Assembly: GCF_017161425.1 (NCBI RefSeq)
Contig: NZ_CP071057.1
Span: forward strand, 868,001 to 932,000
Length of the DNA: 64,000 nucleotides
Reading direction: 5' to 3'
DNA from: Marinicauda algicola
GTDB lineage: Bacteria; Pseudomonadota; Alphaproteobacteria; Caulobacterales; Maricaulaceae
Made by a program: the position numbers and the translations under genes. The notes below the pieces were generated by a model, which saw only the letters and a program-made list of their open reading frames with translations, was not told where the DNA came from and made no database searches. Below are positions 10,663 through 31,370 of this stretch, in pieces. Numbering within the stretch: position 1 is the stretch's first letter; the number at the start of each line of letters is the position of its first letter.

Positions 10663-10893
10663 TTACCCGCCGCAGCAATCACCCATCTGGATCGGCGGGC
10701 ATTTCACATCGCCGAAGGAACAATAGACGCAGCAGTCTCCTGGAAGCGGTTTCAGCAGCGCCCCGCATCCCTTACAGTCATAGAAATACTGGCAGGCGTC
10801 AGTGGGCATAAGGTCCTTGGACCGATGTCCGCATTGGGGACAGGTCAGCGTCGAAGAGGGCTCAAAGCCATCGCTCATCTGAGGTTCAGCCAT
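10663..10893 (-). CDS. GDCCVxC-domain metal-resistance-associated small protein
   Basis: This 76-residue protein has eleven cysteines: CPQCG (18-22), C34, CKGCG (40-44), then GDCCVYCSFGDVKCPP (52-67) and a final GDCCGG. The GDCCVxC signature is found in small proteins next to mercury-resistance genes; in some relatives a cysteine is replaced by selenocysteine, but here it is an ordinary Cys codon. The fold is probably a metal- or thiolate-binding ribbon; no reaction is established. It overlaps the 3' end of merT by 19 bp, so the two are co-transcribed from the MerR-type promoter. Confidence 0.8.
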   Translation of the reverse strand: MAEPQMSDGFEPSSTLTCPQCGHRSKDLMPTDACQYFYDCKGCGALLKPLPGDCCVYCSFGDVKCPPIQMGDCCGG

Positions 10894-11252
10894 CGCAGCA
10901 ACGCTCCTTCATAAGACGGCAATATCCATGCGCCCACGAGCAGCAGGACAGCCACCGAGACACTGATCCAGAACCGCGTCTTCGGACGCCGACCGCCGCG
11001 CAAGGCGAAAACAATGGCACCTGCAAGCAGGAGCATTGCAACGATCATGAAGGCGTTCTTGTAGCGGGCGAAGAAGCCAAGATTGGCGACAAGCGCGCTG
11101 CTGACGCCAAGGTTTACAAGCAGGATTGGCAGCACGCAGCACGAGGCCCCAAGGAAGGCGAAAAAGCCGCCGAGGACGCCGCCGCCCGCCAGCCAGCCAT
11201 TGGCGCGGGACGCCTTGGTCACAGTCACATCGTTGTCAGTTTCAGCGGTCAT
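10875..11252 (-). CDS. merT: MerT-like mercuric ion transporter
   Basis: This 125-residue inner-membrane protein has three predicted membrane segments and the vicinal cysteine pair GASCCVLP (C38-C39) in the first one, as in MerT, which takes Hg(II) from periplasm to cytoplasm. The second cytosolic Cys pair of classical Tn501 MerT is not visible, so it is closer to the shorter MerT variants. It is divergent from merR and first in a two-gene unit with the GDCCVxC gene. No merP and no merA are in the window, which leaves the fate of imported mercury unexplained. Confidence 0.8.
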   Translation of the reverse strand: MTAETDNDVTVTKASRANGWLAGGGVLGGFFAFLGASCCVLPILLVNLGVSSALVANLGFFARYKNAFMIVAMLLLAGAIVFALRGGRRPKTRFWISVSVAVLLLVGAWILPSYEGALLRWLNLR

Positions 11253-11258
11253 CTTTAT

Positions 11259-11289
11259 GGCCTACAATCTGTAGCCGCTACAGAAGCAA
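11259..11289 (-). promoter_or_regulatory. MerR-type promoter for merT (19-bp spacer with dyad)
   Basis: Reading leftwards, -35 TTGCTT (11284-11289) and -10 TAGGCC (11259-11264) are separated by exactly 19 bp. The spacer contains the dyad CTGTAG-CGG-CTACAG. An over-long 19-bp spacer with a central dyad is the hallmark of MerR-activated promoters. It lies between the merT and merR starts and so can also repress merR. Confidence 0.8.
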
Positions 11290-11300
11290 GAGGCAATTTC

Positions 11301-11696
11301 ATGACCGGGTTCAGAATCGGGCGATTGAGCGAGGAAACGGGCGTCCATATCGAGACGATCCGCTACTATGAAAAGATCGGTCTTGTTCCGAAACCTCCCC
11401 GCAGCGATGGCGGTAGGCGGCTCTATGACGGTGGTGCAATCCAGCGCCTGCGCTTCATCCGGCGGGCGCGCGACCTTGGCTTTCCTCTCGATGATGTGCG
11501 TTCGTTGATGGGCCTTGCGACCGAACCTGGATGCTGCGCGGACGCTTTTGAGATTGCAGAACGTCACCGATCGGATGTGCGAAACCGCATCGCCGATCTG
11601 CGTCGTCTGGAACGGCGTCTGGCGGAGCTGACAAAGGCCTGCCAAAGCGATGGCGATCTCGAATGCGGACTTATCGATGCGCTCTCACGGAGCTGA
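11301..11696 (+). CDS. merR: MerR-family mercury-responsive regulator
   Basis: This 131-residue regulator has the MerR winged-helix start (FRIGRLSEETGVHIETIRYY), a coiled-coil dimer helix and cysteines C79, C114 and C122. Their spacing (35 and 8) closely follows the Hg-binding triad of MerR (C82, C117, C126). It is divergent from merT and abuts the 19-bp-spacer promoter. Known MerR proteins untwist such promoters when Hg(II) binds across the dimer. An arsenic or lead specificity cannot be excluded, but the Cys pattern and neighbours favour mercury. Confidence 0.85.
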   Translation: MTGFRIGRLSEETGVHIETIRYYEKIGLVPKPPRSDGGRRLYDGGAIQRLRFIRRARDLGFPLDDVRSLMGLATEPGCCADAFEIAERHRSDVRNRIADLRRLERRLAELTKACQSDGDLECGLIDALSRS

Positions 11697-13341: not shown

Positions 13342-13519
13342 ATGGGATGGGCCAGCGAACCCGAACGGGCAAGATTGAAGCTCATGCACCAGGGGGTGCA
13401 CAAGCCATTGTCTGCACATCTCTTTTTTGGCGTCTCATGCCGGAAAGTGTGGCGCCCGGTTTTCATGGGTTTTGTTGAATTCATTGAGGTTTTTTGGCGC
13501 CTGTGGGCGGAGACGCGCC

Positions 13520-15454
13520 ATGGTCGATGACACGGACTTCACCCCCCGGCTCGGCAAGCTGCGCGATGTCGGTGCGGGGTCTTCAAAGCGGTTTCGCGCG
13601 CGGGTTCTGAAGGTGGCCAAGGGCCTTCATCGAAAGCCGACGCGGCCCGGCTTTACCGGGGCGCGGATCGGACGCGGGAGCGCAGCGGGAATCCATGCCT
13701 TGTCACGCGCCGGACACATTGAGCGCTTCCGGATGCGGCGGGTCGTCGTCAAAGTGCACATTGCGCGCGCCCGAACCGGTATCGGAGTGGCGGCTTATGG
13801 AAGGCACCTTGACTACATCCAGCGCGACGGGGTGGACCGCGAGGGAAGGGGCGGCGAGCTTTATGGGCGCGAAGGTGAGCGCGTGGACGGGCGGGACTTC
13901 GCAGATCGCAGCCAGGATGACCGTCACCAGTTTCGCATCATTGTCTCGCCGGAAGATGCGGGCGAGATGGGTGATCTGAAAGAGACGACGCGGCGGCTGA
14001 TGAACGAGATGGAACGCGACCTTGGCACGCGGCTCGACTGGGTCGCCGTCGATCACCACAATACAGGCCATCCGCACACGCATATTGTCATTCGTGGCAA
14101 GGACGCGATGGGACAGGACCTTGTCATCGCGCGCGACTATCTGATGAAGGGCCTCCGCGCGCGGGCCGAAGAACGCCTCACCCAGGAACTGGGGCCGCGC
14201 CGTGATGTCGAGATCGCGAAAGCCCGGCAGCGTGAAGTGACCATGGATCGGTTCACCGGGCTCGACCGGGAGCTTGCATCACTAGCGGTGAATGACCGGG
14301 TTGAACTGCCTCCGGCCTCCGGGGCTCAGGCGAGGTTCACGCGGAGCCTGCAGCGCCAGAGGCTGGCGCATCTGGAAGGGCTGCATCTGGCGGCACCCTC
14401 CGGGACTGATGTCTGGCAGCTCAAGCCGAACTGGCAGCGCGCCCTGACGGCCATGGGGCGGCGCGGCGACATCATCCGCGCGCTGGCGGCCGGTGTCGAA
14501 CATGGCCCGCATCTGACAAAGGTGCACTTCTTCGATGAGCGCCTCGATGATGCGCCGCCTCTTCGCGGGACCGTCATCCAGAACGGACCAGAGGATGAAC
14601 TCACCGACAAAAGATTCCTGCTCCTTCAGGACTTCGAGGGCACGCCCTGGTATGTGCCGGCCGGAGATGATCCTGTGCCGCCCAGGGGCGCGGTTGTGGA
14701 GGTCTCCCGCAAGCAGGGGTCTCCCTCGCGTTCAGACCGGGTCATTACGCAGATCGCTGAGCGCAACGGCGGGTTTTATTCCGACGCGCTGCATGCCGAG
14801 GCTGATCCGTCAGCATCGAGCGCCTACCGGCTCGCGCACAAGCGCAGGCTGGAAGCGCTTCGCCGCGCCGGGATTGTGACGCGTGGCATGGACGGCGTCT
14901 GGCAAATCGGCGAGCGCTACCTTGAGCAGGCTGCGGAATATGAGGCGGCGCGGGGCGGCGGCATTCGTGTTCGGGTGCGCTCCTGGATGGCCATGGAGGC
15001 GCAGATCGAAGCGCGCGCGGAGACCTGGCTCGATCAGGTCAGTCCTACAGAGATCGGTGAAGGCGAAAAGCGGCTGCATGAGGCGCGCCTTTTGCGGCTT
15101 GGGTTTCTGCGCCGCGAGGGCTTGCTGGTGGATGAGCAGGACCGGCTCAGCGAAGAGGTTCGCCGTCGCATGCGGCTTGAAGAGCTGCGGCGAGCGGCAG
15201 CGGGCGAGACGAACCAGTCTGGTCGGAAGTATGCAGCGCTGGAAACGGGCGAGCGGTTCGAGGGCGTGTTCGAAAGGACAGCTGACCTTGCACAGGGCCG
15301 AATGGCGATCATCGGCAATGAGAAAGCCTTCGCCATGGTGCCGTGGCGGCCTGACCTAGAGCGTCAGCGCGGACGCTCGCTGGTGATTGAGGCGCGGGAA
15401 CACGGGATCAGCTGGACACTGCCCGGTGGGCGGCAGCGGGGGCTGGGGCGTTGA
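13520..15454 (+). CDS. Relaxase/mobilization nuclease with DUF3363 domain
   Basis: This 644-residue relaxase is expected to nick oriT and pilot DNA in conjugation. The N-terminal part contains a VirD2/TraI-like relaxase domain with the metal-binding histidine motif DHHNTGHPHTHIVIRG (about residues 175-190). An upstream HRQFRI-type strand and a long C-terminal DUF3363 region ending at GRQRGLGR are also present. I chose the ATG at 13520; the frame is open further upstream but the family starts near here. The usual neighbours traG and copG are displaced 7.8 kb downstream by metal-resistance cargo. Confidence 0.88.
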   Translation: MVDDTDFTPRLGKLRDVGAGSSKRFRARVLKVAKGLHRKPTRPGFTGARIGRGSAAGIHALSRAGHIERFRMRRVVVKVHIARARTGIGVAAYGRHLDYIQRDGVDREGRGGELYGREGERVDGRDFADRSQDDRHQFRIIVSPEDAGEMGDLKETTRRLMNEMERDLGTRLDWVAVDHHNTGHPHTHIVIRGKDAMGQDLVIARDYLMKGLRARAEERLTQELGPRRDVEIAKARQREVTMDRFTGLDRELASLAVNDRVELPPASGAQARFTRSLQRQRLAHLEGLHLAAPSGTDVWQLKPNWQRALTAMGRRGDIIRALAAGVEHGPHLTKVHFFDERLDDAPPLRGTVIQNGPEDELTDKRFLLLQDFEGTPWYVPAGDDPVPPRGAVVEVSRKQGSPSRSDRVITQIAERNGGFYSDALHAEADPSASSAYRLAHKRRLEALRRAGIVTRGMDGVWQIGERYLEQAAEYEAARGGGIRVRVRSWMAMEAQIEARAETWLDQVSPTEIGEGEKRLHEARLLRLGFLRREGLLVDEQDRLSEEVRRRMRLEELRRAAAGETNQSGRKYAALETGERFEGVFERTADLAQGRMAIIGNEKAFAMVPWRPDLERQRGRSLVIEAREHGISWTLPGGRQRGLGR

Positions 15455-15845: not shown

Positions 15846-18800
15846 TCAAGCGTCGGATAGGTGTTCGTGCCGGGCCTCGATCAGGGAGTGATGCCCCTCC
15901 GGTTTTGGCGCAAACCAGCGATGCAGGGCGGGCACCACCAGGAGCGTCAGCACGGTGGATGAGATGAGACCGCCGGTGACCACCGTCGCCAGTGGCCGCT
16001 GGACCTCTGCACCGACGCCCGTTGCAAAGAGCAATGGGGCAAGCCCCAAAGCCGTCGTCAGCGCGGTCATCAGGACGGGAAGGGCCCGAAGGCCTGCTGC
16101 CTCGATGGCAAGCTCATCGCGGCCCCGTCCGGCTCTTGCGAAGTCATCCATGAAGCTGACCAGCACCATGCCGTTGCCGAGCGCGATTCCGAACAGGGCG
16201 ATGAAGCCCACCGTCGCGGGTACCGAAACCGGCAGGCCCGCGACCCAGAGCGCGAGCGCCCCGCCTGTCAGCGCCAGCGGAATGTTCAGAAGGATCAGAA
16301 CCGCTGACATCAGGCGCCCAAACGTGAGGAGCAGGATGAGGAAGACGATGCCGAGCGTGATCGGGATGACCACGGCGAAGCGGGCATTGGCCTGCTGCTG
16401 CAGTTCATACTGCCCGCCCCATTCGACCCGGTATCCGGGTGGCAGGTCGAGCCCTGCCTCCACCGCAGCCTGTGCATCGGCGACATAGCTGCCAATGTCA
16501 CGATCGCGAACATTGAGCTGCACGGTGATGAACCGCTCGCCATTCTCGCGCGTGATCTGCCGGGGACCGACGACTTGGCTGATCTCCGCGACGCTTTCCA
16601 GCGGAATGCGCGCACCACTTGAGGATTCAAGGATGATGCGTCCGATGGCGGCGGGCGTGTTGCGATCGGCCTCATCGAAGCGCACGACGACCGGGAATTG
16701 CCGCACGCCCTCGAAGACCACACCGGCCTCTGCCCCGCCGACGCCAGAGCGCAGCGCGTCCAGTGCCTCTTCGACGCTGAGCCCATATCGCCCCAGCGCC
16801 GCACGGTCGAGCGAGACGACGAGTTGCGGCGCGCCGGTAATCTGGTCGGCCTGGACGTCGCTCGCGCCGGGCACCTCCTGAAGGATGGATTGAAGCGCCT
16901 GTGAGCCTTCGAGCAGGACCTGCGTGTCCGGCCCGAATATCTTCACCGCGAGCTGCGCCTTCGTTCCGGTCAGGAGTTCATCGACCGACATGGCGATGGG
17001 CTGGCCGATATTGACGCGAATGCCCGGAAAGCTGGCGAGATTGTCTGATATCGCGTCGCGCAGATCTTCCGGACTGAGCCCCGCCCGCCATTCGCTGCGC
17101 GGTTTGAGCGCCACAAAGGCCTCGATACTGTTGACCGGATCGGCATGGGCGCCGACCTCGCCGCGCCCGATCCGGCTGACGATGGAGTCAATTTCGGGGA
17201 AGGTGTCGAGGAGTCGCCTTTCGACGCGGGTCGCTGTCGCGCTGGCTTCTGTCAGTGAGATTGATGGGGCCATGGTGACCCGCAGGAGAATATCGCCTTC
17301 CTCAAGGGCAGGCGTGAACTCCGAGCCGAGCCGTGTCGCGGCAAACCCGCCAGCGACCAGAAGCAGCGTGGCAAGGGCGAGGGCTGCGCTCCGCCTGTGA
17401 ACGAAGAAGGCTGCCAGCGGGCGCACCATCCGCGTGATCCGGCTTTCCTTAACTGTATCGCCGTTTGAGCGCGGCGGCCTCATCAGGCCGAGCGCCAAGG
17501 CAGGCGCAATAAGCATGGCATAAATCAGCGATCCGGTCATGGCGAGCGCGGCGGAGGCTGCCAGCGGGCGGAATATCTTGCCTTCGGTCCCCTGCAACGA
17601 GAAGAGCGGCAGGAACACGATGATGACGACGGCGACCGCGGCCACCAGTGGCGCAATCACTTCGGCGCTGGAGCGGGCGACGGTCGTGCGATTATCCTCG
17701 CCTGCGCCGCGTTCACGAAACCCGCGCGCGACATTCTCGGCGATCACGATGGCCCCGTCGACCATCATGCCGATGGCGATGGCGACGCCGCCAAGCGTCA
17801 TCAGATTTGCCCCGATGCCGAGCGCATTCATGGCGATGAAGGCAAACCCGACGGAGAACGGGATCGACATCACCACGACGAGGCTCGGACGCCAGCCGCC
17901 AAGGAACAGGAACACGACGATGGCCACCAGCAGGCCGCCCTGCCAGAGCGCCGTCGTGACCGTTGCCGCAGCTTTCTCCACCAGCGTGCCCTGATCGTAA
18001 TAGGGGATCACGCGCACGCCATCGGGTAATGAGGCGTTGATCTCTTCGAAGCGGGCCTTGGCGTTGGCGATCACGTCTGAGGTATTGCTGCCATAGAGTT
18101 TGAGCACCAGCCCGGCGACAGTTTCGCCTTCGCCATTGGCGGTCGCCATGCCCTGACGGACCGCCCCGCCGATCACGACCTGGCCGAGATCGCCGACTCG
18201 GATCGTGCGCCCGTCAACGGTCTTGACCGGGGTTTCCTCAAGATCCGCGATTGTTGTCGCAAGCCCGACGCCGCGCACGGTGTATTGCTCGGCGCCGATC
18301 TCGATATACTGCGCGCCGGCTGTGCGGTTGGCGCTTTCGAGGGCGGCGATCACGTCGCTGACCTGAAGGTCCTGCGCCAGCAGGGCGTCAGGATCGAGCT
18401 GCACCTGGTATTGCTTCTCAAATCCTCCAAGTGCGAGCACTTCGGTGACGCCTTCGACCGACTGGAGCGGATATTTGATCATCCAGTCGGCGATCTCGCG
18501 CAGTTCGATCAGCGAGCGCGTGCCCGTTTCATCGACGAGGCGGAAATACATGATGATGCCAAGGCCGGTGGAGATGGGGCCCATTTTCGGCGTGCCGAAT
18601 CCTGCCGGGATGGCGTCGGCGGCCTCGCCGAGGCGTTCGCCGACCACCTGACGGGCGAAATAGACGTCCGTGCCGTCCTCGAAATAGATATTGACCACGG
18701 AGAGCCCGAAATTGGAGGTGGAGCGCATCTCCCTGACCTTTGGCAGGCCGGACATGGCGGTCTCGATCGGGAAGGTGACATAACGCTCAACCTCTTCGGG

Positions 18801-18968
18801 CGAGAGGCCTTCGGTCTCGGTGAAGACCTGAACGAGCGCGGGGGACGGATCGGGGAAGGCATCGACCGGAAGGCTGCGGAAGGCAAACAGGCCACCGAGC
18901 GTCATGGCGATGACGGCAATCGCCGCCAGCAGGCGTCCACCTGCAATTCTGTGCATGAAATTGAGCAT
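15846..18968 (-). CDS. czcA: CzcA-type heavy-metal RND efflux pump
   Basis: This inner-membrane proton/metal antiporter of the HME-RND family has 1,040 residues from the ATG at 18968 (AAGGAT upstream, 13 bp after czcB). It shows twelve membrane segments, the start MLNFMHRIAGGRL and two large periplasmic loops. The TM4 signature reads AIGMMVDGAIVIAEN: the second Asp (D404) and Glu (E411) of the CzcA proton-relay motif are kept, but the first Asp is Ala (A398), as in CusA-like pumps. Zn/Co/Cd specificity is therefore likely from the operon but not proven. With CzcB and CzcC it forms a trans-envelope exporter. Confidence 0.9.
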   Translation of the reverse strand: MLNFMHRIAGGRLLAAIAVIAMTLGGLFAFRSLPVDAFPDPSPALVQVFTETEGLSPEEVERYVTFPIETAMSGLPKVREMRSTSNFGLSVVNIYFEDGTDVYFARQVVGERLGEAADAIPAGFGTPKMGPISTGLGIIMYFRLVDETGTRSLIELREIADWMIKYPLQSVEGVTEVLALGGFEKQYQVQLDPDALLAQDLQVSDVIAALESANRTAGAQYIEIGAEQYTVRGVGLATTIADLEETPVKTVDGRTIRVGDLGQVVIGGAVRQGMATANGEGETVAGLVLKLYGSNTSDVIANAKARFEEINASLPDGVRVIPYYDQGTLVEKAAATVTTALWQGGLLVAIVVFLFLGGWRPSLVVVMSIPFSVGFAFIAMNALGIGANLMTLGGVAIAIGMMVDGAIVIAENVARGFRERGAGEDNRTTVARSSAEVIAPLVAAVAVVIIVFLPLFSLQGTEGKIFRPLAASAALAMTGSLIYAMLIAPALALGLMRPPRSNGDTVKESRITRMVRPLAAFFVHRRSAALALATLLLVAGGFAATRLGSEFTPALEEGDILLRVTMAPSISLTEASATATRVERRLLDTFPEIDSIVSRIGRGEVGAHADPVNSIEAFVALKPRSEWRAGLSPEDLRDAISDNLASFPGIRVNIGQPIAMSVDELLTGTKAQLAVKIFGPDTQVLLEGSQALQSILQEVPGASDVQADQITGAPQLVVSLDRAALGRYGLSVEEALDALRSGVGGAEAGVVFEGVRQFPVVVRFDEADRNTPAAIGRIILESSSGARIPLESVAEISQVVGPRQITRENGERFITVQLNVRDRDIGSYVADAQAAVEAGLDLPPGYRVEWGGQYELQQQANARFAVVIPITLGIVFLILLLTFGRLMSAVLILLNIPLALTGGALALWVAGLPVSVPATVGFIALFGIALGNGMVLVSFMDDFARAGRGRDELAIEAAGLRALPVLMTALTTALGLAPLLFATGVGAEVQRPLATVVTGGLISSTVLTLLVVPALHRWFAPKPEGHHSLIEARHEHLSDA

Positions 18969-18981
18969 GATGATCGGATCC

Positions 18982-20226
18982 TTAGTGTGCGTGGCCGTCG
19001 CCGAACGCGTCTTTTTCAAGCTGCGCTTTCAGCGTGAAGGCGCCTTCGGAGACGAAACGGTCGCCCTCTGTCAGCCCTTGACGAATTTCAGTGAGCTCGC
19101 CCCGGGACGATCCCGTCTCGACGGGGCGCGGGGCAAAACCGCCTTCGACCGGCACGAAAACAGATGCGCGTCCCTCGACCTCGACGACGGCATCGGATGG
19201 CACGTGCAAAATGCGGCCCCCTTCGCCAATCGCGATTTCGGCGGTGACAAACTGGCCGGGCCTGAGACGGCTATCCGGATTGTCGATGATGACCCGCGCT
19301 GTACCGGTGCGGGTGGCCTCGTCAATGACCGGCAGGATGAGGGCGATCTCTCCGCGTGCGGCATCAGCGCCGTCACGGGTGCGCAGAATGACCAACTGAC
19401 CCGGCGCAATTTTGTCGGCATCGGCCTTGTAGATGGCGATATCCGCCCACAGCCTGGACTCGTCCACGATCACGAACAGCGCCTCGCCGCCGGCTTCCAC
19501 GCTCGATCCCAGCGACACGCTGCGCGAAATCACCGTTCCGGCGATCGGCGCGAGGATGGCTGCATTCGCGAGGGCGCCGTCGGGCGCATCAGAGAGGCTG
19601 TCGAGGACAGCGTCGCTGACCCCGACGGCATGGAGCTTGTTCTCCACCGCCTCACGGGCAACGCGCGCGCTCACAAGAGCGGCGCGGGCCGCATCGAGGT
19701 CTGCCTCCGAGGTGATCTTGTCGTCGAACAGGCGCTCCTCGCGCGCGAGATTGGACGCTGCGAGATTTTCAGCAGATTTGGCGGTCAGGAAGTCCGCCTT
19801 CAGTTCGGCGAGTTCCCGGCTCGACAGGAGTGCAAGGCGCTCGCCGCGCCGGACGATATCGCCTTCACCCTTGTCGAGGCGCGAGACGAGGCCGCTGACC
19901 GGGGCAGCGACCCGCGCCACGCGATCCGCATCGAAGCGAAGCTCCGCAGGCAGGGAGAGCGTTTCGGCGATGCGCCCCAGTTCAGCGGTCGCGATGACAA
20001 TGCCCGCTTCAGCGGCGCTCGCGGCATCCAGCCGAACGACATCACCTTCGTGCTCGCCGCCATGCGCGTCATGATCCTCATCTCCGTCTTCATGAGCATG
20101 GTCGCCATGATCGTCATGGGCTTCAGCGCCGCCAACCTGGCGCGTGGACGGCGTGTCAGTTGCACCGCATCCAGCGAGGGTGAGAACGAGCGCAAGCGCC
20201 AGCCCGGTCAGTTTTGTGTCGGTCAT
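18982..20226 (-). CDS. czcB: CzcB-type membrane-fusion protein of metal efflux pump
   Basis: This 414-residue periplasmic adaptor connects CzcA to CzcC. It has a lipoprotein signal with lipobox LAGC (Cys about 20) and a long His/Asp-rich stretch (about residues 35-62) likely to bind metal. Lipoyl/barrel-sandwich motifs follow (RVAAPVSGLVSRLDKGEGD and ILAPIAGTVISRSVSLG), then a coiled-coil hairpin between them. Its ATG overlaps the czcC stop by 4 bp, supporting one operon. Confidence 0.9.
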   Translation of the reverse strand: MTDTKLTGLALALVLTLAGCGATDTPSTRQVGGAEAHDDHGDHAHEDGDEDHDAHGGEHEGDVVRLDAASAAEAGIVIATAELGRIAETLSLPAELRFDADRVARVAAPVSGLVSRLDKGEGDIVRRGERLALLSSRELAELKADFLTAKSAENLAASNLAREERLFDDKITSEADLDAARAALVSARVAREAVENKLHAVGVSDAVLDSLSDAPDGALANAAILAPIAGTVISRSVSLGSSVEAGGEALFVIVDESRLWADIAIYKADADKIAPGQLVILRTRDGADAARGEIALILPVIDEATRTGTARVIIDNPDSRLRPGQFVTAEIAIGEGGRILHVPSDAVVEVEGRASVFVPVEGGFAPRPVETGSSRGELTEIRQGLTEGDRFVSEGAFTLKAQLEKDAFGDGHAH

Positions 20227-21521
20227 TGGGTGTCTCCGTCGAATGGGGCCGCGCCGATCAGGCTGCGGAGGATGAGGTCTGCGACGCGCGCATCCCGGCG
20301 CGCGGCGATGACGGCGCGCCGGGTCTCGATGAGCACCGCGCGGGCCTGAAGTGTGGTGGTGAGGTCGAACCGGCCGATGGCGTAGCCCTGAAGGGCGGCG
20401 GCATAGGCGGCCTCCGCTTCCGGAAGCGCCTCGTCGGTGAGGATCGATAGTCTCGAATTTGACGCCCGGACGCTGGCGGTCGCGGCGAGCTGTTCGGCGC
20501 GCAGGCGCGCATCGACCGCACGTGCTGACACCGCTGCGGCCTCGCCGCGAAGACTGGTGGCGCGGGCGGCGTCGCCTCCGCGATCGAAGATGGGCAAGGG
20601 TACGCTGATACCGGCGACAAAGGCGCTGTCGCCCGTCTCCTCAAAGCGCCGAAAGCCGCCCGAGAGCGTGACATCCGGTATCGCTTCTGCGCGGGCGCGG
20701 GCCAGCTCGGCTTCGCGCGCGCGCACCGCCGCCTCGGCAGCGGCAAGGCGTGGGTGGCTGCCGGGTTCGCCTGCTGCCAGCGATGGCGCGATCTCAAACG
20801 CGGTCGGCAGACCGAAGACGGGTTCTGCCGCCCCCCACAGGCTGGCGAGCGCATAGGCGCGCGTCTCGACCTCGCCTGCGGCAAAGGCTGCCTCAGCGCG
20901 CAGGCTGGCGGCATCGGCCTGGGCGCGGGAGAGTTCCGGCGGCGCTGCAGCGCCCGCATCGACCCGCTTTGCGACTGTCTCAGCGAGTTCGGTCGCAAGC
21001 TCTGCGGCCTCGGTAGCCAGCGCCGCCGTCTCAATGGCGGCGACGAGATCGGCATAGGCAAGTGCGGCCTCGCGTTCAGCTTCGCGCAGGATGACGCTGC
21101 ATTCAGCCGTGCCAAGCGCCGCGCGGGCGCGGGCGGCGCGTTCGGAAAGGACCCGCTTATTGCCAAGGCGGAAGGTCTGCTCGACAGCGAAGGTCGATTC
21201 GGTGCGGTCGAAGCCGGACAGCGCGCCATTTCCGGAGAAATTCTCAAGCTCGACACTGACGGACGGGTTGAGACGACGCCCGGCCTGATCGGCCTCTGCG
21301 CTGAGCGCGCGGGCTTCAAGACCGGCGGCGCGGATATCCGGCGAGGCGCGCCGGATTTCGGTGATCACGGCGTCAAGACTTGCCGGTATCTCGGGCGAAA
21401 GGGCGCCGGGTTCGGTTGAACCACCCGGCGTGCAGGGGCTTGCAGACGCGCTGCCTGCCGCAAGGAGTGCGGCCAGGGCAAGCGCCGGGACGGCGAGTGC
21501 GCCCCGAAACAGAAATGACAT
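20223..21521 (-). CDS. czcC: CzcC-type outer-membrane efflux protein
   Basis: This 432-residue TolC-family outer-membrane factor has an N-terminal signal peptide (about residues 1-27, ending SASA-S) and two repeated OEP domains rich in Ala/Arg heptads (for example RLNPSVSVELENFSGNGALS and the second-half VTLSGGFRRFEETGDSAFV). It completes the czcCBA tripartite pump. It is the first pump gene, 81 bp after the small His/Cys-rich gene, and overlaps czcB. Confidence 0.88.
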   Translation of the reverse strand: MSFLFRGALAVPALALAALLAAGSASASPCTPGGSTEPGALSPEIPASLDAVITEIRRASPDIRAAGLEARALSAEADQAGRRLNPSVSVELENFSGNGALSGFDRTESTFAVEQTFRLGNKRVLSERAARARAALGTAECSVILREAEREAALAYADLVAAIETAALATEAAELATELAETVAKRVDAGAAAPPELSRAQADAASLRAEAAFAAGEVETRAYALASLWGAAEPVFGLPTAFEIAPSLAAGEPGSHPRLAAAEAAVRAREAELARARAEAIPDVTLSGGFRRFEETGDSAFVAGISVPLPIFDRGGDAARATSLRGEAAAVSARAVDARLRAEQLAATASVRASNSRLSILTDEALPEAEAAYAAALQGYAIGRFDLTTTLQARAVLIETRRAVIAARRDARVADLILRSLIGAAPFDGDTQ

Positions 21522-22006: not shown

Positions 22007-22037
22007 TGTCTAATACCTGCAGTCGCTGGAGGGTCAA
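22007..22037 (-). promoter_or_regulatory. MerR-type promoter for the czc operon
   Basis: Reading leftwards, -35 TTGACC (22032-22037) and -10 TAGACA (22007-22012) are separated by 19 bp, with the dyad CTCCAG-CGA-CTGCAG in the spacer. It is 60 bp upstream of the small His/Cys-rich gene and starts 17 bp after the stop of the regulator gene. Control by that MerR-like regulator is the simplest reading. Confidence 0.75.
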
Positions 22038-22053
22038 GCGCTTAACAGAAAAA

Positions 22054-22503
22054 TTACAGGGCAATGTCGCGGGGACCATGGTCGTCGCTCGCGCACTGAT
22101 CATGATCCGCCAGACTGGCCAGTACCGCGCAGGTCGCGACTGCGCCGCCTTCACAGGACCGAACCATGCGTTCAAGTTCGCCTTCAAGGGCGCGCAACCT
22201 TGCGATGCGCTCTCCGACATTGGCGAGTTGACGACGGGCAGCGGCGTCAATGGCGGCGCAATCGGCCTGAGGCGTCGTCTGCAGCGCAATCAGGTCACGG
22301 ATGCTGTCCACGGAAAAACCGAGATCGCGGGCGTGTCGGATGAAGGACAGGCGTTCGACTGCGTCGGGTCCGTAAAGTCGTTGGCCGCTTTCGCTGCGGT
22401 CGGGCGTGCCCATCAGCCCAATGGATTCGTAATACCGGATCGTCGTCACTTTTACCCCGGCCGCTTTGGAGATCCGGCCGATCGTCATCGGTTTGCCGCG
22501 CAT
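22054..22503 (-). CDS. MerR-family regulator (CadR/PbrR/ZntR group)
   Basis: This 149-residue regulator has a MerR winged helix (IGRISKAAGVKVTTIRYYES), a dimer coiled coil and cysteines C82, C117 and C125, the pattern of Cd/Pb/Zn-sensing members. An extra Cys/His/Asp tail (DHDQCASDDHG, 134-144) recalls the metal-binding tail of CadR. The start at 22503 has GAGGG upstream; an in-frame ATG at 22488 would match CadR numbering better. A MerR-type promoter lies on each side of it, serving the czc operon and the divergent methyltransferase-like gene. Confidence 0.88.
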   Translation of the reverse strand: MRGKPMTIGRISKAAGVKVTTIRYYESIGLMGTPDRSESGQRLYGPDAVERLSFIRHARDLGFSVDSIRDLIALQTTPQADCAAIDAAARRQLANVGERIARLRALEGELERMVRSCEGGAVATCAVLASLADHDQCASDDHGPRDIAL

Positions 22504-22515
22504 GAAAATTCCCTC

Positions 22516-22546
22516 TTGTCTCTACAGTCGCTGTAGACTGTAGGGC
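22516..22546 (+). promoter_or_regulatory. MerR-type promoter for the methyltransferase-like gene
   Basis: -35 TTGTCT (22516-22521), 19-bp spacer with the dyad CTACAG-TCG-CTGTAG, -10 TAGGGC (22541-22546). It begins 13 bp from the regulator's start codon, so it is also placed for autoregulation. Confidence 0.8.
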
Positions 22547-22581
22547 ATGCGTCTTGTCAAATTCTGAAGAAAGATCGCCGC

Positions 22582-23154
22582 ATGTCTGCCTTACCCAATG
22601 ACCCCGCCCAGTGGCTCGTCGCCGCAATGATCGCGAACGCCGTTCTGGCCCTGCCCATGGCTCTGCTTGTGCGGCGCGACTTTGTCCGCCTTGGCCGGGT
22701 GTCCTGGCCAATGGCGATCTGGACCGGTGCCGCCATGCACGGCCACGCCCTAGCGAGTTTTGCGCTCGCCTTTGTTGACCGTGGCGGGCTCTATACGCCC
22801 GGACCGTTGTCACTGACGGGGGGCACCGGCGTTTTCCTTCTGGGGGCTTTTGTCATCTATCTCGGTCGTCGCGCCTATGGCGATCAGGCCCGGGTCTATG
22901 GACTGAAGGAAGATGTGCTGATCGAACAGGGCATTTATCGCCGGTCGCGCAATCCCCAGTATCTCGGTTACGGGCTGATGTTTCTGGGCGCTGCGCTTGC
23001 GGGCGGATCAGGCCTTGCGCTGGTCTTCACGCTCGTCTTTGCGGGGCTTGTCCATCTCTATATCCGCTATGTGGAAGAGCCGCACCTGACCCGCATCTTC
23101 GGTGGGGCCTATACCGAGTATTGCCAGCGCGTAGGGCGATATTTTCGCGTGTAA
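22582..23154 (+). CDS. Isoprenylcysteine methyltransferase-like membrane protein
   Basis: This 190-residue integral membrane protein has five predicted helices and the C-terminal SAM-binding signature of the ICMT/PEMT superfamily: RRSRNPQYLGYGLMFLG (about 138-154) and YVEEPHLTRIFGGAYTEYCQ (about 163-182). In eukaryotes ICMT methylates prenylated proteins; bacterial members in metal operons have no defined substrate. It is divergent from the CadR-like gene and has its own 19-bp-spacer promoter, so metal induction is expected. Confidence 0.85.
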   Translation: MSALPNDPAQWLVAAMIANAVLALPMALLVRRDFVRLGRVSWPMAIWTGAAMHGHALASFALAFVDRGGLYTPGPLSLTGGTGVFLLGAFVIYLGRRAYGDQARVYGLKEDVLIEQGIYRRSRNPQYLGYGLMFLGAALAGGSGLALVFTLVFAGLVHLYIRYVEEPHLTRIFGGAYTEYCQRVGRYFRV

Positions 23155-23214
23155 TGCGACATGGCCTGCGAGGCGGACGCTCTGAATTGAGGAGACTGTC
23201 CTGCGCATTCTGAT

Positions 23215-23231
23215 GCCGCCATTTGCCGCCA
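23215..23231 (-). repeat. TGGCGGC iterons, site C (two units, inverted)
   Basis: Read on the minus strand, TGGCGGC-AAA-TGGCGGC followed by AT, with the same 10-bp period as sites A and B. It lies 68 bp before the traG start, in the short gap after the metal cargo, so it marks the third transfer-gene leader carrying this motif. Confidence 0.6.
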
Positions 23232-23298
23232 TTCACACTGGGCAGGGCGGTGCGTGTGCGGAACATTGGAGGGGTTTTCTGTTTGGGAGCCCTTGTCC

Positions 23299-25260
23299 AT
23301 GTCGCCGTCGAAAATTCTTATTGGTCAGTTTCTCATTGTCCTGACCATCATCGTGGCGACCCTTTGGGGCGCGACGCAATGGGTGGCGCATACGTTTGGC
23401 TACCAGCCTGCGCTTGGGCGGCCATGGTTCATCTGGGGTGAGGTGCCGGTCTACCGGCCCTGGCGGCTCTTCCAGTGGTGGTATGCCTATGAGGCCTATG
23501 CGCCGGATGTGTTTGCGCGAGGCGGCGCGATCGCTGCCAGTGGCGGACTGCTCGGCATTCTGGCGGCGGTTGTCGGATCGGTTTGGCGCTCGCGCTGGGA
23601 AAAGCGCGTCACGACCTATGGCTCGGCACGCTGGGCTGAGAAGCGTGATCTTGTGCGCGCGAAACTGCTGGGCGGCGATGGCGTGTTTCTGGGGCGCTGG
23701 AAGGGCCAATATCTGCGCCATGACGGGCCGGAACATGTGCTCGCCTTTGCGCCGACCCGGTCCGGCAAGGGGGTGGGGCTGGTTGTGCCGACCTTGTTGT
23801 CCTGGACCGGCAGCGCCGTGGTGCATGACATCAAGGGCGAAAACTGGGACCTGACATCGGGGTGGCGCTCAGGCTTCGGAACCTGCCTGCGCTTTGATCC
23901 GACCGATGCCCGTTCGCCGCGCTTCAATCCGCTGATGGAAGTGCGCAAGGGCGCGGGCGAGGTCCGCGATGTGCAGAACATCGCCGACATTCTGGTTGAT
24001 CCGGAAGGCTCGCTGGAACGCCGCAATCATTGGGAAAAGACAGGGCATGCGCTGCTGGTCGGTGTAATCCTGCATGTCCTTTATGCGGACGAAGACAAGA
24101 CGCTGGCCGGATGCGCGCGTTTCCTGTCCGACCCGTCGCGGACCTTCGAGAAGACGCTGCAGGTCATGCTGAAGACAAAGCATGTGCGCGAAGGCGATGG
24201 GACGCGCACGGTGCATCCTGTGGTCGCCCAGGCGGCGCGGGAACTGTTGAACAAATCGGAGAATGAGCGCTCTGGCGTCCTGTCCACGGCGCTCAGCTTC
24301 CTGTCGCTTTACCGCGACCCGGTCGTGGCGGCGGTGACCTCGGCGAGCGACTGGCGGATCAGCGATCTGGTCGAGGGGGAGCGGCCCGTTTCGCTCTACC
24401 TCGTTGTGCCGCCGTCGGACCTGTCGCGGACCAAGCCTCTGGTGCGGCTCATACTTAATCAGATCGGACGCAGACTGACCGAATCATTGCCCGATCCGGG
24501 ACGTCGCAAACTGCTCCTGATGCTGGACGAGTTTCCGGCGCTCGGACGGCTCGACTTCTTCGAGAGCGCGCTCGCTTTCATGGCGGGCTATGGCGTGCGG
24601 GCCTATCTCATCGCCCAGTCGCTGAACCAGATCGAGAAGGCTTATGGGCCGAACAATGCGATCCTCGACAATTGCCATGTCCGCATCGCCTTTGCGACCA
24701 ATGATGAGCGCACCGCCAAGCGGATATCCGAGGCGCTGGGCGCCAAGACGGAGCTCCGGTCGCAGAAGAATTATACGGGCCACCGCCTCGCGCCCTGGCT
24801 CTCGCACATGATGGTCTCCCGGCAGGAAACCCAGCGCGCATTGATGACGCCCGGCGAGGTCATGCAGATGGCGCCCACCGACGAAGTGGTCATGGTATCG
24901 GGCACGCCGCCCATTCTGGCGAAGAAGCTGCGCTATTTCGAGGATCGCAATTTTACAGGGCGGGTTCTGCCTGCGGCTTCGGTCGCGGCGATTGCGTCGC
25001 ACATCGTGACTGTATGGACTGAGATGATTGAGGGCAGACCAGCCACGGTCGTCCCCGTCCGGAATGCCGCTGATGAGGGCGGGCGCGATATCGCCCCGGT
25101 GCTCGATCCGCCGGAACGGGTGGCGACACCGGAGCACGATCAGACGCCCGAACCGGAACTCGACGACACCGGAGACGCACCCGGCGATCAGGCGCTTGAG
25201 ACGATCCGGCGCGCTGCCGCGCTCGACCTTGCCGATGACGATACCTTGCCGGAGTTCTGA
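23299..25260 (+). CDS. traG: TraG/VirD4-type conjugative coupling protein
   Basis: This 653-residue ATPase brings the relaxase-DNA complex to the mating pore. It has two N-terminal membrane helices (about residues 6-28 and 75-100), Walker A APTRSGKGVGLVVPTLLSW (about 150-170), Walker B KLLLMLDEFPALGRL and the TraG C-terminal region. The ATG at 23299 is preferred over the longer frame from 23254. The CopG-like gene starts 1 bp after its stop. Normally trbB and the other trb genes follow; here copper genes do. Confidence 0.93.
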   Translation: MSPSKILIGQFLIVLTIIVATLWGATQWVAHTFGYQPALGRPWFIWGEVPVYRPWRLFQWWYAYEAYAPDVFARGGAIAASGGLLGILAAVVGSVWRSRWEKRVTTYGSARWAEKRDLVRAKLLGGDGVFLGRWKGQYLRHDGPEHVLAFAPTRSGKGVGLVVPTLLSWTGSAVVHDIKGENWDLTSGWRSGFGTCLRFDPTDARSPRFNPLMEVRKGAGEVRDVQNIADILVDPEGSLERRNHWEKTGHALLVGVILHVLYADEDKTLAGCARFLSDPSRTFEKTLQVMLKTKHVREGDGTRTVHPVVAQAARELLNKSENERSGVLSTALSFLSLYRDPVVAAVTSASDWRISDLVEGERPVSLYLVVPPSDLSRTKPLVRLILNQIGRRLTESLPDPGRRKLLLMLDEFPALGRLDFFESALAFMAGYGVRAYLIAQSLNQIEKAYGPNNAILDNCHVRIAFATNDERTAKRISEALGAKTELRSQKNYTGHRLAPWLSHMMVSRQETQRALMTPGEVMQMAPTDEVVMVSGTPPILAKKLRYFEDRNFTGRVLPAASVAAIASHIVTVWTEMIEGRPATVVPVRNAADEGGRDIAPVLDPPERVATPEHDQTPEPELDDTGDAPGDQALETIRRAAALDLADDDTLPEF

Positions 25261-27910: not shown

Positions 27911-28891
27911 TTAAGCAGCGGATTGGGCGTGCTGCAAGCGCCGTAGTTTCATCGTCCTCCTTTTGATTTTCTCACGTTCGAGCAGGATGGTCTGGCCGCG
28001 GCCCGTATAGACATCTGCCGGAGTGAGATTGTTCAGGCTCTCGTGATAGCGCTGATGGTTGTAGTAGCCAACGAACGCGTCGATCTGCGCTTCAAGGTCT
28101 CCGGGCAGGAAGTAGTTTTCCAACAGGATGCGGTTCTTCAGCGTCTGATGCCAGCGCTCGATCTTTCCTTGCGTCTGGGGATGATACGGCGCGCCGCGCG
28201 TATGCTTCATTCCCTTGTCGGCAAGATACTCAGCCAGATCGCCAGAGATGTAGGAAGGTCCGTTGTCTGAGAGTAGTCTTGGGCGATGGATCACGTTTAC
28301 TTCATCGAGTCCGGAAGCCTCAAGCGCCAGGTTCAGCGTATCCTGCACATCGCTCGTCGCCATGCCGGTACAGAGCTTCCAGGCAATGATGTAGCGGGAG
28401 AAGTCGTCAAGCACGGTGGAGAGATAGAACCATCCCCAGCCGATCACTTTCAGATAGGTGAAGTCGGTCTGCCAGAGCTGGTTCGGCCCGGTGGTCTTCT
28501 CCCTGAACTCATCAGCCGCTTTCATCACGATGAAAGCCGGGCTCGTGATCAGGTTGTGCGCCCTCAAAAGCCTGTAAACACTGGCCTCGGAGACGAAGTA
28601 GTGCTTCTCATCGGTGAACGTCACCGCCAATTCCCGGGGAGATAGTTCCGGTTGATCCAGGGCCATTTCCAGTACCTGCTGACGCACCTCGTTCGGGATG
28701 CGGTTCCAGACCCGGCCGGAGCCGCTGCGCCGATCCTCAAGCCCGGCTTCACCGAACCGCCGGTAAAGGTCATACCAGCGATAGAAGGTCGGACGTGACA
28801 CGCCGATCTGTTCCAGCGTTCTTTTCACGGGCTGATGCGATTGCTCCACCAGCCGGATGATCTCCAGCTTCTCGGACGCGGGGTATCTCAT
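27911..28891 (-). CDS. IS3-family transposase OrfB, copy 2
   Basis: 326 residues, identical to the OrfB of copy 1: HTH region, rve core and catalytic D143, D209, E245. It is intact, so the element is potentially active. It overlaps the upstream orfA by ATGA. Confidence 0.95.
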   Translation of the reverse strand: MRYPASEKLEIIRLVEQSHQPVKRTLEQIGVSRPTFYRWYDLYRRFGEAGLEDRRSGSGRVWNRIPNEVRQQVLEMALDQPELSPRELAVTFTDEKHYFVSEASVYRLLRAHNLITSPAFIVMKAADEFREKTTGPNQLWQTDFTYLKVIGWGWFYLSTVLDDFSRYIIAWKLCTGMATSDVQDTLNLALEASGLDEVNVIHRPRLLSDNGPSYISGDLAEYLADKGMKHTRGAPYHPQTQGKIERWHQTLKNRILLENYFLPGDLEAQIDAFVGYYNHQRYHESLNNLTPADVYTGRGQTILLEREKIKRRTMKLRRLQHAQSAA

Positions 28892-29259
28892 TCGATATCC
28901 TCCCCATCCCCGATCACGCTTTTTTTGAGGATGCGGTTTTCCAGCGTCAGGTCGGCAACGACCTCCTTCAGATCGCGCATCTCACGCTTCAGGCCACTCA
29001 CCTCGCCGGATGTCGCCTGCCGCTCCGTGTCGCCCGACAAGCGCTTCTTGCCAGCTTCGAGAAACTCCTTCGACCAGGTGTAGTACAGCCCCTGAGCGAT
29101 CCCCTCACGCCGACACAGTTCGGCAATCGAATACTCGCCGCGCAGGCCTTCCAGTACGATGCGGATCTTCTCTTCGGCGGAGAATTTACGCCGGGTCTTG
29201 CGGCGGATTTCCTTCACATGTTTTTCGGCCGATCCCTCCGGCCCGGATTTCTGTCTCAT
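28888..29259 (-). CDS. IS3-family OrfA, copy 2
   Basis: 123 residues, identical to OrfA of copy 1, with the N-terminal helix-turn-helix and C-terminal leucine-zipper-like helix. The A7 run near its end (28919-28926 region) is also kept, so the frameshift option applies here too. Confidence 0.92.
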   Translation of the reverse strand: MRQKSGPEGSAEKHVKEIRRKTRRKFSAEEKIRIVLEGLRGEYSIAELCRREGIAQGLYYTWSKEFLEAGKKRLSGDTERQATSGEVSGLKREMRDLKEVVADLTLENRILKKSVIGDGEDIE

Positions 29260-29662: not shown

Positions 29663-30166
29663 TCAACCGATAGTATCTTGATTTGCAACTATCTGTTTCT
29701 CTGAAGGTCTCATACCTTTCAACATCACTATTGCTAAACCAAGAACAATGGCGATGTCAGCGAGATTGAAGGTTGGCCAGTGAAATCCTAAAACATGAAT
29801 ATCAATGAAATCTGTAACAACGCCGTCAATCAGACGGTCAATGGCGTTGCCCAGAGCGCCGCCGATGATCAATCCGGCCCAGATTGCATCATGCTTATAC
29901 GTGGCGCGCCACAACCGCATCGCCAAATAAGCAGACACGATGAACGCGATGAAAGCCAGTGCCCATGGCGCCCACTCGCTGTTTGAACTTAGCAGACCGA
30001 AGCTGACGCCGCGATTATACCCCAGTCTCAAATCTACAAACGGGAGCAGCTCAACCAAGCCGCCGGACTCGGTCAAATAGGGTATCATAGTGGCTTTTGT
30101 GGATAGGTCGGCGATCAGGATCACTACCGCGATAGAGGTTCCCAGCCAACGAACGTGCTGCGTCAT
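29663..30166 (-). CDS. lspA: Signal peptidase II (LspA), accessory copy in metal module
   Basis: This 167-residue aspartic protease cleaves lipoprotein signal peptides at the inner membrane. It has four membrane helices, GYNRGVSFGLL (49-59) and the two catalytic aspartates D119 (VTDFIDIH) and D137 (FNLADIAI). Extra lspA genes are repeatedly found beside cation-diffusion genes in Gram-negative metal islands; why is unclear. It overlaps the CDF gene stop by 4 bp and is co-transcribed with it. Confidence 0.92.
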   Translation of the reverse strand: MTQHVRWLGTSIAVVILIADLSTKATMIPYLTESGGLVELLPFVDLRLGYNRGVSFGLLSSNSEWAPWALAFIAFIVSAYLAMRLWRATYKHDAIWAGLIIGGALGNAIDRLIDGVVTDFIDIHVLGFHWPTFNLADIAIVLGLAIVMLKGMRPSEKQIVANQDTIG

Positions 30167-30822
30167 TCTGGGTTTGCCTCACTCGCCAACGGGTCTGTCT
30201 TGCGGGACGTGACGACACTTAGATCGCGACGCGCATCGCGCAAAATGTTCCACGCCGAATGAAGAAACAAAGCCGCAATCAGGAAGGCCACGATGAGGTC
30301 GGGCCAGCGAGTAGACGTCAAGGCAACCAGACCTGCGGCGATGATAACAGCCACATTGCCGATCGCATCATTGCGTGAAAAAAGCCACACAGCGCGCATA
30401 TTGGCGTCACCGTCGCGATAAGGCAGCAAAGGCAGGACAGCGATGAGATTCACGATCAAGGCAACTAACGCGAAAAGTCCCATTAAGCCGGCTTCAACAG
30501 GTGTGTCCGTGAGGGTCTTGAGAACGGTAGAGGCGAGCACCCAAAGCCCGAGCAGGCCGAGAAAGATGCCTTGAATGAATGCAGACCGCGCCCGCCAGGC
30601 CAGCGACCAACCGATCGCAAGTAGCCCGAGAAATGTGATCGACCCGTCGCCTAAAAAATCGAGGGCATCTGCTTTCAGCGCCTGAGAATTGGCCATGAAG
30701 CCCCCGAAAAGCTCTATGACGCCGTAGCCCACATTCAAGGCAACAACGATCCATAGGGCTCGGCGATAACCGGGTGAACGGATCTGTTCTTCATCAACTC
30801 CGCAGCAATCATCATCCGCCAT
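30163..30822 (-). CDS. Cation diffusion facilitator (CDF) efflux protein, short type
   Basis: This 219-residue protein has six predicted membrane helices. The metal sites of CDF proteins are visible as ADALDFLGD (TM2, residues 51-59) and SRNDAIGN (TM5). The N-terminus starts MADDDCCGVDEE, with a Cys pair, and the cytoplasmic C-terminal domain of larger CDF proteins is absent. It probably exports Zn/Cd/Co or Pb from the cytoplasm. It is divergent from the MerR-like gene and preceded by a 19-bp-spacer operator. Confidence 0.88.
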   Translation of the reverse strand: MADDDCCGVDEEQIRSPGYRRALWIVVALNVGYGVIELFGGFMANSQALKADALDFLGDGSITFLGLLAIGWSLAWRARSAFIQGIFLGLLGLWVLASTVLKTLTDTPVEAGLMGLFALVALIVNLIAVLPLLPYRDGDANMRAVWLFSRNDAIGNVAVIIAAGLVALTSTRWPDLIVAFLIAALFLHSAWNILRDARRDLSVVTSRKTDPLASEANPE

Positions 30823-30915
30823 AGCCTATCCTCTCCTCCTAACATTTGAGCGAAAACAGCTTCATGGAACGGCGTTACGACCGTCAAACTTGTCTGTTTC
30901 ATTCATTGATTTAGT

Positions 30916-30946
30916 TCGTTGCACCCTATAGCTGCTATAGGTTCAA
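30916..30946 (-). promoter_or_regulatory. MerR-type operator/promoter for CDF-lspA
   Basis: Reading leftwards, -35 TTGAAC (30941-30946) is followed by a 19-bp spacer with the dyad CTATAG-CAG-CTATAG and GGGTG, very like PbrR/CadR operators. The -10 position (CAACGA) is weak, so the exact -10 is uncertain. It lies 14 bp before the MerR gene start. Confidence 0.65.
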
Positions 30947-30959
30947 GGGGAAAAATGAA

Positions 30960-31370
30960 ATGCCAGACCAAAACCGTTCAATTGGGCAGTTATCAAAACT
31001 CTCCGGGGTAAAAATCACGACAATACGGTATTATGAGTCTATCGGACTGCTCCCTGAACCGGGACGCACATCAGGTGGACAGCGAGTTTATGACGAAGCG
31101 TCGTCCAATAGGCTGCTCTTTATTCGGCAATGCCGTGATCTCGGCTTTCCAATCGAAGCCATTAGGGAACTCATTGACCTTCAATTGACTCCTAATGCAG
31201 ATTGCCTGGAAGTAGACCGAGTTGCCCGTCACCATCTTGGAGAAGTGGACAAGCGTCTGAAGCAATTGCGCGCCCTTAAAAAGGAATTGAAAGATATGAT
31301 TGTGTCCTGTGCCGGAGGCGAAGTAGCGACGTGCACGATAATGGAGAGCATCACCAAAGCAACACGTTGA
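30960..31370 (+). CDS. MerR-family regulator (CadR/PbrR/ZntR group), second copy
   Basis: This 136-residue regulator has IGQLSKLSGVKITTIRYYES, the MerR DNA-binding start, a long dimer helix and cysteines C82, C117 and C125 as in Cd/Pb/Zn sensors, plus C58. It is related to the regulator at 22054 but diverged and more AT-rich, so it came with this module rather than by local duplication. It most likely controls the divergent CDF-lspA genes. Confidence 0.88.
   Translation: MPDQNRSIGQLSKLSGVKITTIRYYESIGLLPEPGRTSGGQRVYDEASSNRLLFIRQCRDLGFPIEAIRELIDLQLTPNADCLEVDRVARHHLGEVDKRLKQLRALKKELKDMIVSCAGGEVATCTIMESITKATR

Follow-up and report, generated by a model that had tools for sequence, protein, structure and literature searches.

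A MerR-type, probably divalent-metal regulator between two 19-bp-spacer operators, one directed at a czc operon and the other at a membrane methyltransferase gene

Why should a metal-sensing regulator face the gene for a membrane methyltransferase? The question arises from a 64-kb stretch of the Marinicauda algicola genome (the window), where a merR gene separates a czc operon from a methyltransferase (MT) gene of the PEMT/ICMT superfamily. ICMT-like proteins have been noted beside metal pumps since NccN in 1994 (cited in PMC5315480), and no established reaction for them is seen in the available portions of that literature. Judged from its sequence, the unit appears to be a MerR metal divergon with the membrane MT as its second arm. 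Its features are listed in Table 1.

Table 1. Features of the regulator locus and its flanks, in window coordinates
Feature	Position	Strand	Details
P1, MerR-type promoter/operator	22516..22546	+	TTGTCT-19 bp-TAGGGC; upstream of the MT gene; sequence read directly
P1 boxes	-35 TTGTCT 22516-22521; -10 TAGGGC 22541-22546	+	read directly
P1 dyad CTACAGTCGCTGTAG (operator core)	22522..22536	.	CTACAG-TCG-CTGTAG, read directly
P2, MerR-type promoter/operator	22007..22037	-	TTGACC-19 bp-TAGACA; directed at czcI-C-B-A
P2 boxes	-35 TTGACC 22037-22032; -10 TAGACA 22012-22007	-	read directly
P2 dyad CTCCAGCGACTGCAG on - strand	22017..22031	.	CTCCAG-CGA-CTGCAG, read directly
MerR-family metal-sensing regulator, 149 aa	22054..22503	-	PF13411 / PF09278; C82, C117, C125, H134, C137
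MT, PEMT/ICMT superfamily, 190 aa	22582..23154	+	PF04191; motifs RNPQYLGY and EEPHL
CzcI-like small His-rich protein, first gene after P2	21603..21947	-	weak DUF2946, 17.7 bits, under cut-off 23.7
CzcC-like outer membrane efflux protein	20223..21521	-	PF02321
CzcB-like periplasmic adaptor	18982..20226	-	PF16576; RND_mfp TIGR01730 167.2 vs 94.9
CzcA/CusA-family heavy-metal RND pump	15846..19019	-	TIGR00914 976.1 bits, cut-off 701.45
TraG/VirD4-type conjugation coupling protein, first gene past MT	23299..25260	+	PF02534 355 bits, PF12696

The earlier note had described a MerR-like gene lying between two promoters of MerR geometry, and direct reading of the sequence bears this out for the gene, the 19-bp spacers and the inverted repeats alike. 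In both P1 and P2 the center of the dyad lies 2 bp from the center of the spacer, on the -35 side. A comparative study of MerR regulons takes as its signal a palindrome within 19 or 20 bp (PMC1526738), and both sites have this layout. With an operator matrix trained on 12 operators from other loci, from which the window and near-identical sequences were excluded, P1 scores 34.6 bits and P2 29.1 bits, ranks 1 and 2 within the window; the top score in 200 first-order Markov simulated windows is 19.1. The core pattern without mismatch matches twice in the 3.42-Mb genome, at P1 and P2 only. Pairs 5, 6 and 7 of the P1 dyad are conserved in 18 of 18 distinct operators, pair 3 in 17 and pair 4 in 14; the dyad pairs of P2 were counted across seven loci.

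The regulator passes the Pfam cut-offs for PF13411 (67.4 bits, cut-off 21.6) and PF09278 (67.9 bits, cut-off 25.4), and its best PDB matches are 5gpe, of the MerR family, and CadR (6jgv). MerR_1-domain matches number eight in the whole genome. The five Cys and His residues of Table 1 are invariant in an alignment of 15 linked regulators. Aligned with PbrR-like and CadR chains, the protein has a cysteine (C82) at the position of PbrR C79 and two cysteines (C117, C125) in the C-terminal loop, and a cysteine at the first of these positions has been read as a mark of sensors of +2 ions (PMC3431237). The label 'CadR-like' used earlier is loose, for the score against the CadR/PbrR equivalog TIGR02047 is 109.1 bits, below the cut-off of 151.45; the curated cut-offs of the CueR, ZntR and MerR models are not reached either. 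The metal is most likely Zn/Cd, and possibly Pb, on account of the CDF and Czc partners of the system and of CdfX, a CDF zinc exporter of C. metallidurans that is compact, as the short CDF of the window (219 aa) is. CdfX has a much smaller cytoplasmic domain and is induced by Zn and Cd via a MerR-type regulator (PMC11580412, where the available main text does not contain the word methyltransferase).

Behind P2, the TIGR00914 pump and its OEP and HlyD_D23 neighbors identify a Czc/Cus heavy-metal RND system. Its adaptor scores 159.7 against the CzcB/NccB model, under the cut-off of 319.3, and the czcI-like gene holds the same place after P2 in relatives.

The protein behind P1 is recognized by Pfam PEMT PF04191 (70.2 bits, cut-off 25). 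It falls below Pfam ICMT PF04140 (17.7 bits, cut-off 24), which corrects the earlier label 'ICMT-like'. It also falls below NF040696, protein-S-isoprenylcysteine O-methyltransferase (28.6 against 160), and TIGR04571, the LmtA lipid A 1-phosphate methyltransferase (29.4 against 325); the LmtA, ICMT and MddA models are all far from their cut-offs and no curated model fixes the substrate. The C-terminal core of ICMT and PEMT enzymes is marked by R-x-P-x-Y and E-E, which the MT carries as RNPQYxGY and EEPH. These residues (R123, N124, P125, Q126, Y127, G129 and Y130; E165, E166, P167 and H168) are invariant across 20 aligned sequences, which makes enzymatic activity likely. The nearest solved structures are the ICMT enzymes 4a2n (E 2.9e-5) and 5v7p (E 2.9e-4), which share the C-terminal catalytic core; the window MT differs from them in being bacterial and metal-linked, and isoprenylcysteine is presumably not its substrate. 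A single-sequence AlphaFold model of the MT was poor (mean pLDDT 51.1).

Probably the MT uses SAM to methylate a membrane-borne group. Tentatively, our first choice for that group is a lipid or a lipid phosphate, which would bind less metal at the membrane once methylated. A thiol or small molecule is a weaker candidate, as is some substrate of another kind, and a protein carboxyl or regulatory target seems unlikely. Plasmids queried with the MT protein sequence (E 1e-5) gave no match, and a scan of viral contigs gave one remote relative. The subfamily looks narrow, since a search of 398 genomes of the phylum with the subfamily profile (E 1e-25, no more than 8 candidates scored for any genome) has the window genome alone among the matches listed.

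Two questions can be put to the genomes of related bacteria: (i) what accompanies the MT and (ii) what accompanies the operator. For the first, orthologues of the MT (about 50% identity or more) were searched for in samples of the family (137 genomes), the order (299) and the class (385), and 30 contexts of up to 19 kb each were retrieved; near-identical loci come from MAGs that bear the labels Hyphomonadaceae, Ponticaulis and Caulobacteraceae. One more near-identical locus, L002, stands outside the 30 and has a P1 of 34.6 bits and a P2 of 26.8 bits. The merR gene adjoins the MT in 25 of the 30 contexts, is cut off by a contig end in two (L042, L048) and is absent from three (L051, L072, L073); in 20 a CDF-type exporter adjoins the MT and shares its strand. 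Every one of the 28 evaluable relatives has a P1-type site ahead of the MT unit, in 26 of them at 29 bits at least, where 12 of the relatives' sites belong to the training set of the matrix. With a leave-one-lineage-out matrix the P1-type sites score 26-43 bits, except for those of L072 and L073 (13.9-14.5).

L072, L073 and L074 are MT orthologues from beyond the order, in other families of the class, and their operators miss the strict search pattern. L072 and L073 have only weak variants (18.2 bits) with a different dyad, and their 19-kb stretches contain no match to merR. This dyad, CTACAAGC(G/A)TTGTAG, has the 19-bp-spacer layout and lies some 90-100 bp before the MT, and these two MTs may be controlled from afar by another MerR-family sensor. 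In L036 and L074, merR and the MT are neighbors, and tblastn finds no match to CzcA/B/C, CDF or P-type ATPase in the 19-kb stretches. The Pfam families around them are SDR, GGDEF, PurE/PurK, TrcR, alcohol dehydrogenase and penicillin-binding protein for L036, and EamA, TRAP transporter, HMGL and methionine-synthase-like proteins, all non-metal families, for L074. The two genes are co-oriented in L074, with the operator still between them. The MT of L051 has a site of 29.2 bits, but no match to merR or CDF lies in its stretch. A constant tie of the MT to a different pathway, which would have spoken against metal control, does not emerge from this survey: the gene keeps company with merR and CDF or czc genes, and a few units are stand-alone merR-MT pairs or MTs. 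In one metagenome-assembled contig (L067, G364:C176) the MT is split over two frames, which points to an assembly error or else to a disrupted gene.

For the second question, the pattern TTGNNNCTACAGNNNCTGTAGNNNNTA was used, with its reverse as control. Of the 249 genomes in the order sample, 38 have the pattern, at 45 sites in all, and none has the reversed pattern. Thirty of the 45 were examined with their loci, 11 of these being shared with the MT survey, and a PEMT-like gene is part of the operator unit in 21; PF04191 confirmed all ten of the newly found, more distant MTs. The operator occurs without an MT in the remaining nine (L105, L114-L117, L123, L127, L130 and L133). In the class sample the pattern is present in 9 of 260 genomes, the window genome counted, and the ten non-window loci have no MT match (CDF in five, P-type ATPase in three, neither in two). 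Because the operator dispenses with the MT in these nine order loci and ten class loci, the MT looks like an optional addition to a regulator-exporter unit of wider distribution.

The P2-type site goes with czc. Among 40 operator loci, it is found in 14 of the 14 that have czc behind merR, at 13.5-35 bits. Twenty-one loci have no czc there, and 19 of them reach at best 1.9 bits for a P2-type site; the other two, L123 and L132, have a second operator, which in L132 faces the MT. The five loci that have no merR match were left unscored for P2. Among the contexts of the MT survey, P2-type sites with a 19-bp spacer occur in L037, L038, L039, L050, L058 and L067, plus L002. That one promoter would serve czc and the other the MT, as first proposed from the window alone, agrees with this conservation of each site with its target genes (28/28 for P1, 14/14 for P2).

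Two variants of the arrangement may be mentioned. In L123 (G050) merR lies between two near-consensus operators, of which one faces a CDF gene and the other no recognized metal gene. In L065, L066 and L068 the P2 in the merR-czcI gap has one base fewer, giving an 18-bp spacer with a partly altered dyad (8.3 bits with the ungapped matrix). An engineered 18-bp spacer in PpbrA and PmerT raised expression without metal (PMC3431237), and on this ground the three sites may represent naturally occurring czc variants that need no metal.

A tree of 40 proteins, from which CzcN and B_L132 were left out for their long branches, places the MerR-linked MTs in three groups, one of them among unlinked homologues. 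Linkage changes two to three times on the trees, and 0 of 500 shuffles gave as few changes. Independent recruitment of MT lineages to the operator is suggested by these trees, but the AU test does not reject one clade for all linked MTs (p 0.068), C_L031 (contig end, beside CDF), C_L027 and C_L033 (long branches) having been left out before the test. The unlinked control is weaker than planned because 4 of the 16 distant PEMT homologues chosen for it (L020-L035) have an operator-like site of at least 16 bits, three also having a match to merR in the stretch, and were relabelled as linked; a homologue counts here as 'unlinked' if about 1.5 kb on either side of it contains no site.

The explanation that we hold to be quite probable is a divalent-metal MerR regulon (most likely Zn/Cd, possibly Pb) with one regulator and two promoters. 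From two sites that share a geometry and are conserved with their targets in sequence comparisons, we infer binding, induction and the kind of metal. As in other members of the MerR family, a regulator dimer on the dyad in each 19-bp spacer would keep the promoter off. On induction, P2 would supply the CzcI-CBA envelope pump and P1 the membrane MT. In most relatives the P1 unit also includes a short CDF exporter next to the MT; in the mobile element of the window this CDF is absent and traG follows the MT.

It could instead be that P1-type promoters serve the CDF exporter or the regulator, with the MT merely carried along and its methylation unrelated to metals. The 20 contexts of 30 in which a CDF adjoins the MT on the same strand would fit, as would the class sample, where the same operator precedes a CDF or a P-type ATPase with no MT match. 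We nevertheless consider a passenger MT unlikely, given that in L036 and L074 it is the sole recognized operator target beside merR, that L037 and L132 have two operators, one directed at the MT and one at the CDF, that L051 has its 29.2-bit site with neither merR nor CDF matched in the stretch, and that MTs of three tree groups fill the operator slot. The enzyme might also be regulatory, tuning czc expression or metal specificity and not detoxifying, as has been proposed for CzcN. CzcN is labelled 'regulation' in PMC12029693, its role in czc regulation is stated in PMC3056050, and NccN is said to influence metal specificity and Ni resistance (PMC5315480). The window MT, however, is remote from CzcN (28% identity over 120 aa), and the merR-MT units of L036 and L074 have no czc match in their 19-kb stretches, and so a regulatory role of this sort strikes us as distinctly improbable.

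A further alternative concerns the window lineage itself (window, L002, L065-L068): P1 could be the autoregulatory operator of merR alone, its + strand promoter decaying and the MT not induced. The -10 box TAGGGC is weak; P1 sites of the lineage score 31-35 bits, whereas 20 of 24 evaluable relatives from outside it score 40-51, though 12 of these 24 sites are part of the matrix training set; in three near-identical members (L065, L066 and L068) one base of a P1 dyad arm is mismatched; and no member has a CDF beside the MT, a partner lost. Yet the -35 TTG, the 19-bp spacing and the -10 TAG of P1 are retained in all six members, and P1 is still the top-scoring site of the window. Imperfect -10 boxes do exist at working MerR promoters, as the TAAGGT of the Tn501 mer promoter illustrates (PMC3431237). 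We regard the decay of P1 as rather unlikely. Chance resemblance, with the two sites not operators at all, was rejected and retains a negligible probability, in view of the genome-unique core pattern, the simulated maximum, the empty control pattern and the way each site is conserved together with its genes.

More speculatively, and with fairly low confidence, membrane methylation could be a metal-resistance function in its own right in these alphaproteobacteria, with at least two PEMT/ICMT lineages separately captured by one Zn/Cd-type MerR operator and the MT as sole neighboring target in some species; metal would then switch on the enzyme as well as the pump, and P1 might reach traG. Units in which a metal sensor faces the MT alone would offer a clean genetic system for the substrate hunt, and the operator consensus is a way to gather such merR-MT units across genomes. 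The recurrence of the arrangement in related bacteria makes the role of the enzyme in metal resistance a testable question.

Several known systems come close to this arrangement. The PbrR/CadR/ZntR-type divergons (pbrR-PpbrA of pMOL30 and cadR-cadA) have a MerR regulator with the divalent-metal cysteine, a 19- or 20-bp spacer with a dyad and a divergent target (PMC1526738, PMC3431237); the words methyltransferase and isoprenylcysteine are absent from the available main text of PMC1526738. The window and its relatives differ from these divergons in the half-site CTACAG, in the operators on both sides of merR and in the targets, czc and CDF/MT, and the window regulator stays under the CadR-PbrR cut-off. 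The pairing of such methyltransferases with metal genes is itself already known. CzcN (from the czc cluster of C. metallidurans pMOL30) and NccN are membrane proteins of the PEMT/ICMT superfamily adjoining a czc pump, and two papers give CzcN as an isoprenylcysteine carboxyl methyltransferase (PMC12029693, PMC7563307). The window MT adjoins czc too, but at the identity given above it is no close relative of CzcN/NccN, and the czcN-czcE stretch, in an incomplete PLSDB table, has no merR among the genes listed, its regulators being CzcR and CzcS. In P. putida a czcN homologue is located between cusF and copF genes (PMC3056050).

Clusters of merR, copA, cupredoxin, DUF2933 and ICMT genes in Alteromonas and others, located on genomic islands of diverse species, also bring merR together with an ICMT-annotated gene, but they concern copper and the P-type ATPase copA, and no operator analysis of the ICMT gene is seen in the available text (PMC8478169). 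The arsR-czcD-STE14-ompR operon of Cellulomonas sp. Y8 has a CDF exporter beside an ICMT-annotated gene (PMC8832061). Its regulator differs in being of the ArsR family. Cellulomonas belongs to a different phylum from the window organism. In the open-licence literature we found neither the shared operator, nor stand-alone merR-MT units, nor several MT lineages under one operator.

The metal genes are cargo of a conjugative element, situated between a relaxase gene (DUF3363/Relaxase; 13427-15454) and traG (T4SS-DNA_transf; within 23155-25260). The traG gene forms the edge of this cargo: upstream of it, similarity to cargo-free relatives starts at about 23211, and in 10 of the 19 traG relatives no more than about 140 bp separates the end of the relaxase gene from traG, against about 1 kb in one more. 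The MT and traG are co-directional and no intrinsic terminator was called between them, which is weak evidence in GC-rich DNA; on these two grounds read-through from P1 into traG is possible.

Other parts of the window hold related genes. A MerR-family gene at 11301-11696 (+) adjoins a third MerR-type site (11289..11259, -; 20.5 bits), which faces a MerT-like small membrane protein at 10875-11252 (PF02411 28.2 bits, under the cut-off of 32.9). Another MerR gene, 30960-31370 (+), is divergent from the short CDF exporter and an lspA-like gene (29663-31370), and a dyad site of 14.4 bits is found at 30946..30916. This window CDF shares 72% identity with the CDF next to the MT in L058, as might result from the splitting of an ancestral unit. 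Finally, a CusA-like fragment at 26221-27792 matches only profile positions 531-1019 of 1021 and lies beside transposase genes (27911-28891 and 28888-29259); it is probably a pump gene cut by insertion.
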